DNA from: Candidatus Omnitrophota bacterium
GTDB taxonomy: Bacteria; Omnitrophota; Gorgyraeia; Gygaellales; Profunditerraquicolaceae
DNA: 46,041 nucleotides
Assembly (NCBI GenBank): GCA_023819035.1
Contig: JAMWCL010000006.1
Coordinates: forward strand, 1 to 46,041
Reading direction: 5' to 3'
Below are positions 2,840-46,032 of this stretch, piece by piece (the stretch's first letter is position 1; every line of letters begins with the position of its first letter). The notes below the pieces were generated by a model. That model saw only the letters and a list, made by a program, of their open reading frames with translations, did not search any database and was not told the origin of the DNA. A program made the position numbers and the translations under genes.

Positions 2840-5269
2840 TTATTCTTCTTTAACCACCAAAGCTACAGAAGCCACCCGGTCCTTAGGCTGCAATTTAATT
2901 AATCTTACCCCCTGGCTGACTCTTCCAGTTAGACGAATATCCTTTACTGCACAGCGGAGAAACATACCATTCTGGGTAATCGCCATCAATTCATCGCTAT
3001 CAGTAACCGCTTTTAAATTCACCGCAGGACCGTTTTTCTCCGTAACCTTTATGTTAATAATCCCCTTACCTCCGCGACTGGTTAAGCGATACTGCTTTAT
3101 GGGTGTGCGTTTGGCAAACCCTCGTTCAGTCACGGTTAATATCGTAGAATCCTTCTGGGCTACAACCATATCGATTACCTCATCATTCTTTTTTAAGGTA
3201 ATTGCCCGCACTCCGGCTGCAGTTCTTCCCATATCTCTCACTACCGTCTCTGAGAATCTTATCGCCTTACCCAGACGCGTACCAATAATCAACTCCTGCT
3301 TTCCATCGGTAAGCTCCGCACTAATCAGTTCGTCATCTTTGTCCAGAGTTATCCCGATGATCCCCGCTTTGCGCGGATTACTATAAGCATCTAACCTTGT
3401 CTTTTTAATCCTTCCTTTGCGGGTAACCATTACTAAATATCTATCCGCAGAGAATTCCTTTATAGGAATAGTAGAGCTTATCTTCGCTCCCGGCTCTATC
3501 TGAATAAGATTAATGATCGGCTTCCCCTTAGCAGAACGAGCTGCCTGGGGGATCTCATAGACCTTCAGCCAATGGACCTTACCTTTATCAGTAAAGATCA
3601 ATAAATAATCCTTAGTAGAGGCAACAAAGAGGTGTTCAATAAAATCCTCCTCCTTAAGCTCTGCTCCGGTTACCCCTACCCCACCGCGTTTTTGCTTTCG
3701 ATAAGCACTTACGGGTAAGCGTTTAATATAACCATTGTGACTAATCGTTACCACTACATCCTCTTCGGCAATCAGATCCTCGATCTCTAACTCCTCTACC
3801 TCCGCCACAATCTCAGTTCTGCGTTCATCCCCATATTTTTTCTTTAGATTCTGAAGCTCTTCCTTAATGATTGCCTCGATCCTCTTCTCCGAGGCAAGGA
3901 TGGCTTTGCATGACTCAATCTTTTTTAACAGCTCTAAATACTCCGCATCGATCTTATCCCGTTCTAAAGCAGTCAGGCGCTGAAGCTGCATCTCTAAGAT
4001 CGCCTGTGCTTGCACCTGAGTCAACTCGAATTCCTTCATTAGATTGTCTTTGGCACTTTCTGTATTCTTGGAGGTCTTTATTATCTTAATAATTCGATCG
4101 ATATGTTTTAAGGCGATCTTTAATCCCTCTAAGATATGGGCGCGCTTTAAGGCTTTATCTAATTCAAACTGCGTTCTCCTCCTAATGATCGTCTTGCGAT
4201 GCTGGATATAACTTTCTAAGATCTGGCGGAGATTTAAAATCCTTGGTCGATTGTCTACCAGAGCAAGCATAATTACCCCAAAGGTTGTTTCCAGTTGTGT
4301 ATGTTTAAAAAGCTGATTTAAAACAATCTGGGGTTCGATATCCCGTTTTAACTCAATCGCAATGCGCATTCCTTCTTTATCCGATTCATCGCGGATATCA
4401 GAGATCCCTTCTATCTTTTTATCATTTACTAATGAGGCGATCGATTCAATCAGGTTTGATTTCTGGGCCTGATAGGGGATCTCGGTAATCACAATCATGT
4501 CCCTTCCGCTTTTTAGATGCTCGATATTTGCCCGTGCCCTTACTGTAAGCTTCCCTTTCCCAGTAAGATAAGCCTCTTTTATCCCTTCCTTACCACAGAT
4601 GATTCCTCCGGTAGGAAAATCCGGTCCTTTTAAATAACGCATAAGATCCTTAACCTCTGCTTTGGGGTTATCTAAAAAATAGATAATTGCATCCGCTACC
4701 TCATTTAAATTATGTGGAGGGATATTAGTAGCCATGCCCACCGCAATTCCACTTGAGCCATTGAGTAAAAGGTTAGGTAGGACCGCGGGTAAGATTAAGG
4801 GTTCTTTTAAAGAGGCATCGAAGTTAGAAACAAAATTTACAGTATCCTTATCAATATCTAAGAGCATCTCTCCCGCAATACGGGATAAACGACATTCGGT
4901 ATATCGCATGGCCGCAGGAGCATCACCGTCCACTGAACCAAAGTTTCCCTGTCCATCAATTAAGGGATAACGTAGGGAAAAATCCTGGGCTAACCTCACT
5001 AAGGCATCATAGACCGCGACATCTCCATGGGGATGATATTTACCCAGCACCTCACCCGTAACCCGGGCACATTTCTTATAAGGCTTATCATGCTCAAGAT
5101 TCAGCTCCTTCATTGCATACAAGATCCTTCTCTGCACAGGCTTTAGCCCATCCCTTACATCCGGAAGCGCCCTGCCTACAATTACACTCATCGCATAAGT
5201 AAGATAAGAATCCTTTACCTCTTCTTCAATATAAACCGGAATTATCTTTTCGTTACGGGTATACATCAT
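2840..5269 (-). CDS. gyrA: DNA gyrase subunit A
   Basis: GyrA is the DNA-cleaving subunit of gyrase, which introduces negative supercoils together with GyrB. The 809-residue product opens with a family-typical N-terminus ([20 protein letters not shown]). It has the catalytic tyrosine in [11 protein letters not shown], the [10 protein letters not shown] loop, and a C-terminal beta-pinwheel with repeated blades. SRGGKG near residue 730 resembles the GyrA box (QRRGGKG), so gyrase rather than topoisomerase IV is favoured, also by the adjacent gyrB and origin. The start is at one of two adjacent ATGs (5269 or 5266), 10 bp after gyrB, with no obvious Shine-Dalgarno. Confidence 0.95.
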
Positions 5270-26967: not shown

Positions 26968-27153
26968 GCTTAAAGGAGAATTCTTTGAAATATCCCTGCA
27001 GTGCCCGTTAGGAGGAAAAAGAAGCGGTGAACCAACACCTTTTTGAAGGGAGCTTAACTTCCTTGGCACCGTGGTGTTAAGGAGAGAGCACCCACTTTAA
27101 AAAAGACGGTTCATATCCTATCGCCTCCAACGGCACGCGCGGGGATTTTTTTT
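26968..27153 (+). ncRNA. ssrS: 6S RNA
   Basis: 6S RNA mimics an open promoter and sequesters housekeeping RNA polymerase. This 186-nt region lacks an ORF and has a long, bulged closing stem: ATCCCTGC, GTGCC, GTT and GGAGG near 26992-27015 pair in order with CCTCC, AAC, GGCAC and GCGGGGAT near 27124-27146. Inside it TGAACC/GGTTCA and AACACC/GGTGTT form inner stems around a purine-rich bubble. A T-tract (TTTTTTTT) follows directly. Length, closing stem with small bulges, own promoter, and position (pheT upstream, rarA directly downstream, fthC and rny nearby) fit known 6S loci. Confidence 0.78.
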
Positions 27154-42427: not shown

Positions 42428-42436
42428 GATAGATTT

Positions 42437-42507
42437 TGCCCTGTCGTCTAATGGTAGGACGCCTGGCTCTGGACCAGGTAGTCGTGGTTCGAATCCACGC
42501 GGGGCAG
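42437..42507 (+). tRNA. tRNA-Gln (CTG anticodon)
   Basis: The acceptor is TGCCCTG/CGGGGCA (one G-T pair) with discriminator G. The D arm contains GTCTAATGGTAGGAC, the anticodon stem CCTGG/CCAGG encloses CTCTGGA (anticodon CTG), and the T arm is CGTGG-TTCGAAT-CCACG. CCA is not encoded. It marks the boundary between housekeeping genes and the accessory block to its right. Confidence 0.92.
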
Positions 42508-42615
42508 AATTCCTCTTATAAAAATCATCAACGAAAGATATTTAATTGAAAAAGGAGGCGATAAATATATTGAATTCTGTTGAATTTTTAAAGAAGTTAT
42601 AAGAGGAAATTATTA

Positions 42616-43365
42616 ATGCGAATTGAAATAACTTTAAATAGTCAAGAGAAAATCGCCCTTCCTAAATCCTATAATCATATCTTACAAGGCCTTATCTATA
42701 AACTTTTAGATCCGACTTTAAGGAAATTTCTTCATAATTGTGGTTATCAATATGAAAAAAGAAAATTTAAACTCTTTACCTTTTCTCGGCTCATCGGTAA
42801 ATTTAAGGATCTCAATACTGGTTTTCAGTTTACCTGTCCTATAAAATTCTTTATCTCTTCTCCAAAAGATGAAATCCTGCAAAGTTTAACTGAAGGATTT
42901 TTAAGAAAGGAAAAACTCTTCTTAGCTGATAATGAAGTATTTATTGAATCTATCAGTGTGATGCCAAAGCCATCTTTTTCTAAAGAAGTTATAATAAAAA
43001 TGCTTTCTCCCATAACTATCTATAGTACACTTAAGAAATCCGATGGCAGTAAAAAGACATATTATTACTCTCCATTTGAAGATGAGTTTAATAAATTGAT
43101 AAGAGAAAATTTAAAGAAAAAATATCAGGTAAGTTTTTATGAAGAAATTGATGGATTTGATTTTAATATTGAACCCTATAAGGTTAGACCTCAAGATGAG
43201 AAGGTGATTTTATATAAAAAACCAAACTCAAATTCTACCGTGATAAAGGCATGGATGGGTTTATATAAATTAAAAGGCAACCCAAGACTTATAGAATTCT
43301 CCTACGATACCGGTTTAGGTTCAAAGAATTCTTTGGGCTTTGGTTGTTGGGAGGTAAAGACCTAA
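42616..43365 (+). CDS. cas6: CRISPR-associated endoribonuclease Cas6 (solitary)
   Basis: Cas6 cuts CRISPR precursor RNA within repeats. The 249-residue product has the family layout: an N-terminal ferredoxin-like fold (MRIEITLNSQ), LPKSYNHILQGLIYKLL with H21 as the likely catalytic histidine, and FTFSRLIGKF. Near the C-terminus it has IKAWMGLYKLKGNP and the glycine-rich loop GLGSKNSLGFGCWEV. No CRISPR repeats, other cas genes or leader are visible within the window. The 108 bp between tRNA-Gln and its ATG hold no gene; AAGAGGAAA at about -12 is the Shine-Dalgarno. It may work on an array elsewhere or be a remnant. Confidence 0.82.
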   Translation: MRIEITLNSQEKIALPKSYNHILQGLIYKLLDPTLRKFLHNCGYQYEKRKFKLFTFSRLIGKFKDLNTGFQFTCPIKFFISSPKDEILQSLTEGFLRKEKLFLADNEVFIESISVMPKPSFSKEVIIKMLSPITIYSTLKKSDGSKKTYYYSPFEDEFNKLIRENLKKKYQVSFYEEIDGFDFNIEPYKVRPQDEKVILYKKPNSNSTVIKAWMGLYKLKGNPRLIEFSYDTGLGSKNSLGFGCWEVKT

Positions 43366-43390: not shown

Positions 43391-43419
43391 TTGACAGGAT
43401 GAAGAAAATATTATAAAAT
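43391..43419 (+). promoter_or_regulatory. Promoter of the first DUF4143-type ATPase
   Basis: TTGACA (43391-43396), 17 nt, TAAAAT (43414-43419). It lies 43 bp before the ATG at 43462, in a 96-bp AT-rich gap after cas6. Confidence 0.65.
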
Positions 43420-43461: not shown

Positions 43462-44703
43462 ATGATTAATTTATTAAAGTACAATCCACATTGGGAGAAG
43501 GGTTTTAGATACCCATTTGAGAAAAAAAGGGAAGTTTTTAACTTTCTTTTAAAATCTCTATCCAAGCGCCAAATTGTAGAAATAGTAGGTTTAAGAAGAA
43601 CAGGAAAAACTACCCTCCTTTTTCAAGTTATCAATCATCTTTTAGAGAATAAAATAGAGCCATTTAAAATATGGTATTTTACCTTTGATGAAGAGAAAGT
43701 CTCCTTAGATGAATTATTTAAAGAATTCTCTCTTCAGACACAGATAGACTTTAGAAAGGAAAAACTCTATATCTTTTTGGACGAGATCCAGAAATTGCCA
43801 GATTTCCAAGCCCAACTTAAGGTCTATTATGATTTATATCCTAATTTAAAATTTTATCTTTCCGGGTCTACCTCTTTATTTATTAAAAAGAAGATTCAGG
43901 ATAGTCTGGCAGGAAGGATTATGGAGGCATATCTTTTGCCTTTAAATTTTAAGGAGTATCTTTATTTTAAAGGAAAATCAGAACTCATTGAAAAACCCCA
44001 TGTCTTTGCCTATGAGATAGAGAAGGAATTTGAGATATTTTTAGAGAGCCAATTTATTGAGAGTATCTTTATTACAGAAAGAAAAGACCGAAAGGAATAC
44101 TTTTACACAATAATGAAAAAAATCGTCTTTGAGGATATCCCCCAGATTTTTTCTCTGGATAATCCTGAGATTCTTTGGCGGTTATTAAAGATTATTGCTC
44201 AACAGCCGGGAATCCTTTTAGATTATCAGAGTTTATCTAAAGAGATCGGAATATCCAATAAGACTTTAAGTTTATATCTCTTTTATTTAGAGGAGGCATT
44301 TTTACTGCATAAGGTATTTAACTTTTCTCGAAATTTAATTACCTCGGAAAGAAAACTGAAAAAATTCTATCTATCTTCTCCATCTTTTAGTTGGGCACTT
44401 ACCGATTTTTGTGATAAAGGTAAACTCGTAGAAAATTTTATCATTTCTTGCAAAAATTATAAATTCTTCTGGCGCGATTCCTATAAACATGAGATAGATT
44501 TTGTAGAAGTAAGAGATAATCAGATAATCCCGGTGGAGATAAAATATAAAGATGAGGTTCAGGATAAAGAGTTAAAAAATCTATGGATATTTTCTAAAAA
44601 ATTTAATTGTTCAGAGGCAATCTTTTTAAAGAAGACATTGGAAGAAAAAAGAAGAATATTTAAAGATTTAACCATTAAGGAATTACCCGTATATCTTGCT
44701 TAA
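43462..44703 (+). CDS. AAA+ ATPase, AAA_14/DUF4143 type, copy 1
   Basis: The 413-residue product has Walker A EIVGLRRTGKTTLLFQV, Walker B KLYIFLDEIQKLPDFQ and sensor-like FYLSGSTSLFIKKK. These are followed by the family's DSLAGRIMEAYLLPLNFKEYL, a central helix-turn-helix-like part (QSLSKEIGISNKTLSLYLFYL) and a C-terminal nuclease-like fold (KHEIDFVEVRDNQIIPVEIKYK, with D-x-n-E-x-K). Such proteins are common, often mobile or in multiple copies, and their function is mostly unknown. The neighbour at 44800 is a diverged paralogue. Confidence 0.82.
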   Translation: MINLLKYNPHWEKGFRYPFEKKREVFNFLLKSLSKRQIVEIVGLRRTGKTTLLFQVINHLLENKIEPFKIWYFTFDEEKVSLDELFKEFSLQTQIDFRKEKLYIFLDEIQKLPDFQAQLKVYYDLYPNLKFYLSGSTSLFIKKKIQDSLAGRIMEAYLLPLNFKEYLYFKGKSELIEKPHVFAYEIEKEFEIFLESQFIESIFITERKDRKEYFYTIMKKIVFEDIPQIFSLDNPEILWRLLKIIAQQPGILLDYQSLSKEIGISNKTLSLYLFYLEEAFLLHKVFNFSRNLITSERKLKKFYLSSPSFSWALTDFCDKGKLVENFIISCKNYKFFWRDSYKHEIDFVEVRDNQIIPVEIKYKDEVQDKELKNLWIFSKKFNCSEAIFLKKTLEEKRRIFKDLTIKELPVYLA

Positions 44704-44755: not shown

Positions 44756-44785
44756 TTGACAAAATATTTATATTTTTTGTAAAAT
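44756..44785 (+). promoter_or_regulatory. Promoter of the second DUF4143-type ATPase
   Basis: TTGACA (44756-44761), 18 nt, TAAAAT (44780-44785). It lies 14 bp before the ATG, implying a leaderless or very short-leader transcript. It has the same -35 and -10 hexamers as the promoter of copy 1. Confidence 0.6.
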
Positions 44786-44799
44786 ATGGTTAGAAAATT

Positions 44800-46032
44800 A
44801 TGAAAATATATCCACGAAAGATACTTCAAAAGATAAAAAAATTTCTAAACACCCCTGAAATTATAGTGATTCACGGCGCCCGCCAGGTAGGAAAGACCAC
44901 CCTTTTACATATGTTAATGCAAGAAATCCAAAGAAGCAGTCCACCTTCAAATATCGTCTTTTTTGATTTAGAGGATTTTGAATTAACTGAACTTTGCAAC
45001 CGAGGAGTAAAAGCAGTGGTAGAACATCTTAAAGCCAAAGGATGCAATTTTAATCAGAAGATATGGCTTTTTATTGATGAAATCCAGTATTTAGAAAACC
45101 CCTCATCTTTTCTTAAATATTTTTTTGACCACTACAAAGACAAAATTAAGTTAATTGTTTCTGGTTCTTCATCTTTTGCTCTTAAGTCAAAATTTAAAGA
45201 GAGTCTTGTAGGTAGAACCTTTAATTTTGAACTATTTGGTTTAGATTTTGAGGAATTCTTAGTCTTTAAAAATTTAAATTACGATTTATCTACTACCGAT
45301 AAAATAGTTACTGAAGAACTAAAAAAATTATTTCTGGAATACTTATTTTATAGTAGTTATCCCAGAGTTATTTTAGAAGACTCCTTAGAGATAAAAAAAT
45401 CTATATTAAAACAAATCATCAATACCTATATAAAAAAAGACATTAAAGACTTAGCTAAGATTGCCAACATAGATAAATTTAATAAGTTATTACGCATAAT
45501 TGCTTCTCAGTCGGCTAATTTAATAAATATCTTAGAATTGGCTAATACCTGTGGAATTTCTCGACAAACTTTGGAGAACTATCTAATGATTTTGGAAAAT
45601 ACCTATATTATTAGACGGATCAGTCCTTTTTATTGTAATCTTCGTTCAGAATTAACTAAGATGTCAAAGGTTTATTTTGAGGATTTGGGGATAAAGCATA
45701 TTTTAGAGAAAGGAGATTTTCCTAATCTCTTAGAAGGACCTACCTTAGAAACAGGGATATTTTCAATCTTAAGAAAAAATATTGAGACAGAAAATATTCA
45801 TTTCTGGCGAACTACCCGAAAGCAGGAGATTGATTTTATTCTGGATTTACCACAGGGACTTTTTGCCTTTGAGACAAAAATTAATTTAAGAAACAAAGAT
45901 GGTCAAATCCTTTCTGCATTTAAAAAAAAATATCCCGGGGCTCAAACTTATTTGGTAGGTTTAAATTTTGTGGATAAGAAACAAAAGATAAAATTTCTTT
46001 ATCCTTGGCAGATATTAAAAATTTTAGGATAA
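44800..46032 (+). CDS. AAA+ ATPase, AAA_14/DUF4143 type, copy 2
   Basis: The 410-residue product has Walker A IHGARQVGKTTLLHMLM, Walker B KIWLFIDEIQYLENPSSF, LIVSGSSSFALKSKF and ESLVGRTFNFELFGLDFEEFL. It has a helix-turn-helix-like NTCGISRQTLENYLMILE and a C-terminal DUF4143 part with FWRTTRKQEIDFILDLPQG and FAFETKINLRNKDGQ, a nuclease-like D-x-E-x-K pattern. It is closer to the common family consensus than copy 1. No Shine-Dalgarno is visible before its ATG. The gene is complete and ends 9 bp before the window does. Confidence 0.84.
   Translation: MKIYPRKILQKIKKFLNTPEIIVIHGARQVGKTTLLHMLMQEIQRSSPPSNIVFFDLEDFELTELCNRGVKAVVEHLKAKGCNFNQKIWLFIDEIQYLENPSSFLKYFFDHYKDKIKLIVSGSSSFALKSKFKESLVGRTFNFELFGLDFEEFLVFKNLNYDLSTTDKIVTEELKKLFLEYLFYSSYPRVILEDSLEIKKSILKQIINTYIKKDIKDLAKIANIDKFNKLLRIIASQSANLINILELANTCGISRQTLENYLMILENTYIIRRISPFYCNLRSELTKMSKVYFEDLGIKHILEKGDFPNLLEGPTLETGIFSILRKNIETENIHFWRTTRKQEIDFILDLPQGLFAFETKINLRNKDGQILSAFKKKYPGAQTYLVGLNFVDKKQKIKFLYPWQILKILG

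Follow-up and report, generated by a model that had tools for sequence, protein, structure and literature searches.

A cas6 gene without visible CRISPR-Cas partners on an exchanged island beside tRNA-Gln in Candidatus Omnitrophota

The window analysed here, a stretch of 46,041 nucleotides that makes up one whole contig of an Omnitrophota MAG (G000; 1.25 Mb, 57 contigs, 92.6% complete), carries near its right end a gene for a full-length Cas6 protein, for which no CRISPR array or other cas gene was found on the visible side or in the assembled genome as far as it was searched. The best reading, to which a probability of roughly 55% is given, is that the gene encodes a seemingly intact Cas6, descended from type I-B, which has become detached from its operon, has spread horizontally on a small AT-rich island and processes pre-crRNA from arrays located elsewhere.

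Organization of the locus

The features of the locus are as follows.

42436..42508, + strand, tRNA-Gln (CTG), identified with ARAGORN and Rfam; in three genomes the exchanged block has its left edge here
42509..42615, + strand, spacer of 107 bp between the tRNA and cas6; conserved with the island in related loci L004 and L005, absent in L003
42616..43365, + strand, cas6 of the PF01881 type; putative catalytic residues Y28, H40 and K52, Gly-rich loop GLGSKNSLGFG at residues 233-243
43391..43419, + strand, promoter-like site (11/12) just 5′ of ATPase1; consensus match only
43462..44703, + strand, ATPase1 (413 aa) with AAA_14 and DUF4143 domains (Pfam); its start follows orphan cas6 in other genomes
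44756..44785, + strand, promoter-like site (11/12) 5′ of ATPase2; consensus match only
44800..46032, + strand, ATPase2 (410 aa) with AAA_14 and DUF4143 domains (Pfam); 9 bp from the contig end

Position 42508, from which the first-pass annotation had started the gene, is the final base of the tRNA-Gln gene, and the cas6 ORF itself has 249 codons. The arrangement described there, with cas6 lying between a tRNA and two AAA+ ATPases, is borne out by the domain and tRNA assignments. The spacer has inverted ends (TTCCTCTTATAA / TTATAAGAGGAA) and resembles a degraded coding tail. Apart from the tRNA, no known RNA families were identified near the cas6 locus.

The two ATPases are 29% identical to each other. 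No match to ATPase1 was obtained among PDB sequences, and its predicted structure (pLDDT 40) is unusable. No further copies of the AAA_14-DUF4143 ATPase were present in the 844 kb of G000 scanned, so the family is not visibly expanded. Given the promoter-like site in front of it, ATPase1 may be transcribed separately from cas6, although no excess of such matches is seen in the region as a whole. The contig ends at 46041, and the 2.7 kb to the right of cas6 contain no other cas gene. Overlap of this right end with other G000 contig ends examined was not found, and the continuation is therefore seemingly not in the bin.

Elsewhere in the window there is a 6S RNA gene at 26990-27149 (RF00013, 76.7 bits). 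At the left end (1-150), the bases from approximately position 50 recur at the ends of contigs C31, C44, C12, and C52 of the same genome, indicating that the contig starts in repeated sequence.

The Cas6 protein

The product of 42616-43365 (249 aa) is assigned to Cas6 of the PF01881/Pyrococcus type, and as an enzyme it is ordinary. It matches PF01881 (E-value 1.9e-39, 135.8 bits against a curated cut-off of 23) and TIGR01877 of NCBIfam (E-value 1.3e-49, 169.4 bits against 58.65) over its full length, and it also matches PF21350 above the curated cut-off (E-value 3.3e-12). A search of PDB sequences returned solely Cas6 or Cas6-related proteins. The AlphaFold model (pLDDT 86.6) possesses the double RRM fold, Foldseek giving TM scores of 0.74-0.84 against 5yi6, 3qjj, 3ufc, 3i4h, and 3pkm. 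In the Cas6 alignment Y28 and K52 are invariant and H40 nearly so, with the Gly-rich loop at 233-243 intact. The plausible catalytic histidine and Gly-rich loop noted earlier can thus be placed at H40 and 233-243 in a protein with both family and structural matches.

In the alignment to the PDB matches, Y28, H40, and K52 pair with the catalytic Y/H/K residues of Pyrococcus Cas6, Y31, H46, and K52. The Pyrococcus furiosus enzyme (3i4h, 3pkm) is alike in fold (TM 0.74-0.83) and in these aligned residues. However, Pyrococcus Cas6 works for several arrays of its own genome, whereas none was found in the sequence scanned of the window genome.

Search for CRISPR-Cas partners

As searches for Cas7, Cas3, and Cas1 were negative, the locus is not assigned to a type I-B system. 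Neither Cas1 nor the I-B Cas7 (PF05107) was identified in G000, a MAG of 92.6% completeness, and searches of the same genome with cas3_core and for other RAMPs gave nothing above cut-off. The window Cas6 is the one match to PF01881 in G000, and there is none to PF10040. Matches to cas3_core with E-values down to 5e-11 were rejected as general helicases, the strongest of them corresponding to RecG, Mfd, and Hel308-like proteins; a weak RAMP match at C11 was also discarded, its ORF reading as an LptD-like outer-membrane protein.

No CRISPR array with ATTGAAA-type repeats was found in the whole G000 genome. A scan for arrays irrespective of their repeat, covering 844 kb of its 1.25 Mb (approximately 68%, comprising contig ends and interiors, with N in a few stretches), likewise found none. 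The array finder recovered both positive controls, namely the arrays of L009 and L098. The first-pass view of a cas6 standing without array or cas genes is therefore upheld by the Cas1, Cas7, cas3_core, RAMP, and array searches alike, with the solitude of the gene supported as far as is visible and limited by the contig ends. A literature search on orphan or solitary Cas6 proteins gave nothing relevant.

Orphan cas6 genes in other Omnitrophota

The window gene belongs to a separate lineage of orphan Cas6 found in seven Omnitrophota genomes (the window's included), with no cas neighbor in view. Copies in G234, G277, and G401 are 94-98% identical to that of the window, those in G106 and G181 are 65-66% identical, and G230 has a fragment at a contig end. 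The gene is rare, being present in five of the 128 genomes of the order. Near-identical Cas6 genes occur in Candidatus Omnitrophota records from Tibet; kinship with these genomes places that of the window among related Omnitrophota, and their record names suggest a hot-spring origin.

The ORF is intact in all six genomes where the gene is visible over its whole length. By reading, no other cas genes were found on the orphan-cas6 contigs; across these genomes no I-B Cas7 was detected, and no Cas1 with the exception of a III-A Cas1 in G181. Every orphan cas6 contig ends near cas6. The start of ATPase1 follows cas6 at five loci (the window, L004, L005, L019, and L020), so that the co-occurrence check suggested in the first-pass annotation does find linkage with the first ATPase; given the promoter match of ATPase1 and its separate exchange history, described below, a functional tie would not follow from this.

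In L019 (G106, 4550-4855), cas6 has lost its stop codon and runs on into a fused tail, and approximately 930 bp are missing from within the ATPase1 that follows, near the contig end; this may be a genuine deletion or a join made in assembly. In two genomes of one genus (L020, L021), the orphan cas6 is preceded on its 5′ side, in the same order, by genes for a papain-type peptidase, for a small protein and for a PIF1-like helicase that has a WYL domain.

G181 also possesses a type III-A locus (L098, 11306-19780, and L148, 308-1727) apart from its orphan cas6, with Cas10, Csm2-5, a CARF-HEPN protein, Cas1, Cas2, a 3-repeat array and a Cas6 of the PF10040 type. Its Cas10 is split into two ORFs and its Csm5 is shortened, which may reflect frameshifts or decay, and the locus shares its contig with gltX and dxs. 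Since this locus has its own PF10040 Cas6, it was rejected as a trans partner; the orphan Cas6 is a second one in G181 and is not needed there for processing. The III-A repeat does not occur in any of the six further orphan-cas6 genomes.

Relatives outside the phylum

Cas6 relatives outside Omnitrophota (37-46% identity) head type I-B operons in Gelria, in an Aquificaceae and on a Deferribacter plasmid. In Gelria the gene order is cas6-cas8-cas7-cas5-cas3, and Aquificaceae contig L009 shares this order and continues with cas4, cas1, cas2, and an array of 14 repeats (genes identified by reading), while the Deferribacter megaplasmid has an annotated I-B set with its Cas6 relative. These proteins share with the window Cas6 the family over its full length, the putative catalytic residues and the Gly-rich loop. 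However, theirs is the first gene of cas6-cas8-cas7-cas5-cas3, whereas the window cas6 is followed by ATPase genes with no cas gene visible. Plasmid records yielded four distant Cas6 proteins, the best being that of Deferribacter at 38%, and no relatives were found among viral contigs or phage records.

Evidence for horizontal exchange

The stretch from the end of tRNA-Gln onward is, judged by sequence comparison, an island recently exchanged between related Omnitrophota genera, with at least two insertion contexts. Relative to L005, the window shows 98.3% nucleotide identity from tRNA-Gln through ATPase1, while the genes upstream are at approximately 72%; relative to L004 it shows 94.2% with the same tRNA-Gln border and flanks at approximately 72%. 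At tRNA-Gln, identity to both jumps from approximately 30-55% to over 90%. In G234 (L003), another gene precedes cas6, and the identity sets in at the start codon of cas6. Between the window and L004, dS is approximately 2 for gltX and approximately 0.25 for cas6. The GC content of the island is 0.293 against a mean of 0.395 for the rest of the contig, lower than in all 84 1.5-kb windows there. Both the jump in identity and the GC content place the start of the foreign block at the 3′ end of tRNA-Gln. It is the high identity of the island against diverged flanks, the contrast in dS and the low GC that argue for recent horizontal exchange, and the earlier suggestion of a mobile island is well accommodated by these features together with the second insertion context. 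Neither an integrase nor a direct repeat of the tRNA end was found in the visible 3.5 kb, the far border of the island being located past the contig end.

ATPase1 has a separate exchange history, as its identities are unlike those of cas6: for the window and L005 its nucleotide identity is 99.7%, compared with 96.0% for cas6, and the ATPase1 of G106 is 96-99% identical though its cas6 reaches only 66% at the protein level.

Selection and possible role

The dN/dS of cas6 is 0.09-0.13 for most pairs, at identities from 98% to 65% (values for distant pairs being rough as dS is saturated), with weaker constraint for the window-L005 pair (0.27-0.38). As most values are close to 0.1, the gene is under purifying selection and can be taken to be functional. 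By analogy with characterised Cas6 proteins, its likeliest role would be the cutting of pre-crRNA within repeats. According to a review, type III Cas6 resembles that of types I-A and I-B and has the same pattern of action (PMC8616872). The DUF4143 ATPases were most likely carried along as additional cargo, each under a promoter of its own, and not as partners of Cas6.

In the proposed course of events, a Cas6 of type I-B ancestry would have separated from its operon and been carried between Omnitrophota genera by a small AT-rich island, entering partly via integration or recombination at tRNA-Gln. The detached enzyme would still cut CRISPR repeat RNA, its substrate arrays presumably being located in genome parts missing from the assembly or on mobile elements of the same host; the array served may be past the contig end, within the third of the genome outside the scan, or on such an element. 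Processing of arrays in trans, one of the roles first suggested for the gene, is thus plausible, although a partner array was sought and none found.

The main rival is an operon out of sight: cas6 may be the edge of a complete I-B (or other class 1) locus past the contig end, with the ATPases inserted and the remainder unbinned. This is a real, if clearly lesser, possibility, as cas6 heads the I-B operon in its relatives, the window's right end overlaps no examined G000 contig end, and all orphan contigs break close to cas6, so that assembly may account for the lack of partners. It is countered by the 2.7 kb rightward without a cas gene and by the start of ATPase1 following cas6 at five loci in different genera where I-B loci have cas8; the other orphan genomes also lack Cas1 and the I-B Cas7, bar the III-A Cas1 of G181. 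A join made during assembly or binning, with a foreign fragment attached at the tRNA-Gln end, would account for the GC jump, and the MAGs of the relatives are fragmentary and of low coverage (1-5), but the tRNA-Gln junction is common to three genomes whose alleles differ (94-98% identity rather than 100%). This is the least probable of the explanations.

Alternatively, cas6 could be a remnant in decay, left over from a CRISPR-Cas locus since lost and a passive passenger of the island; the missing partner genes and array speak for this, as does the internal deletion in the neighboring ATPase1 of G106. A dN/dS of approximately 0.1 across 65% identity, the six intact ORFs and the retained putative catalytic residues nevertheless render decay very unlikely. 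Re-use on an RNA unrelated to CRISPR, such as a transcript of the host or of a mobile element, possibly with the AAA_14-DUF4143 ATPase, is given an equally small chance. An orphan lineage kept under selection without an array and the cas6-ATPase1 adjacency at five loci speak in its favor; set against these are unaltered catalytic and Gly-rich-loop motifs, the promoter match in front of ATPase1, the fact that ATPase1 was exchanged on a course of its own (99.7% as against 96.0% for cas6), and the tRNA as sole known RNA family near the locus. The new RNA target put forward in the first-pass annotation gained no supporting evidence. A broader form, improbable though somewhat less so, is that a free-standing, spreading Cas6 lineage is coupled to the AAA_14-DUF4143 ATPase and acts with no CRISPR locus of its own, cutting crRNA precursors of invading mobile elements or a different RNA.

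With the detached, horizontally spread Cas6 as the preferred reading, a parallel is solo-Cas4, which one report (PMC5704561) describes as a single cas gene outside CRISPR-cas loci on mobile elements, Cas4 being unlike most other Cas proteins in this respect. Both are lone cas genes outside a locus with carriage on mobile elements; Cas4, unlike Cas6, is a nuclease of the adaptation module. Apart from Cas4, Cas proteins are not commonly described as free-standing. Should the operon simply lie past the contig end, the locus would be an ordinary one. If a Cas6 has indeed been exchanged between genera and selected without its operon, it would be a naturally occurring case in which to study crRNA processing in trans or, alternatively, the re-use of a CRISPR ribonuclease.
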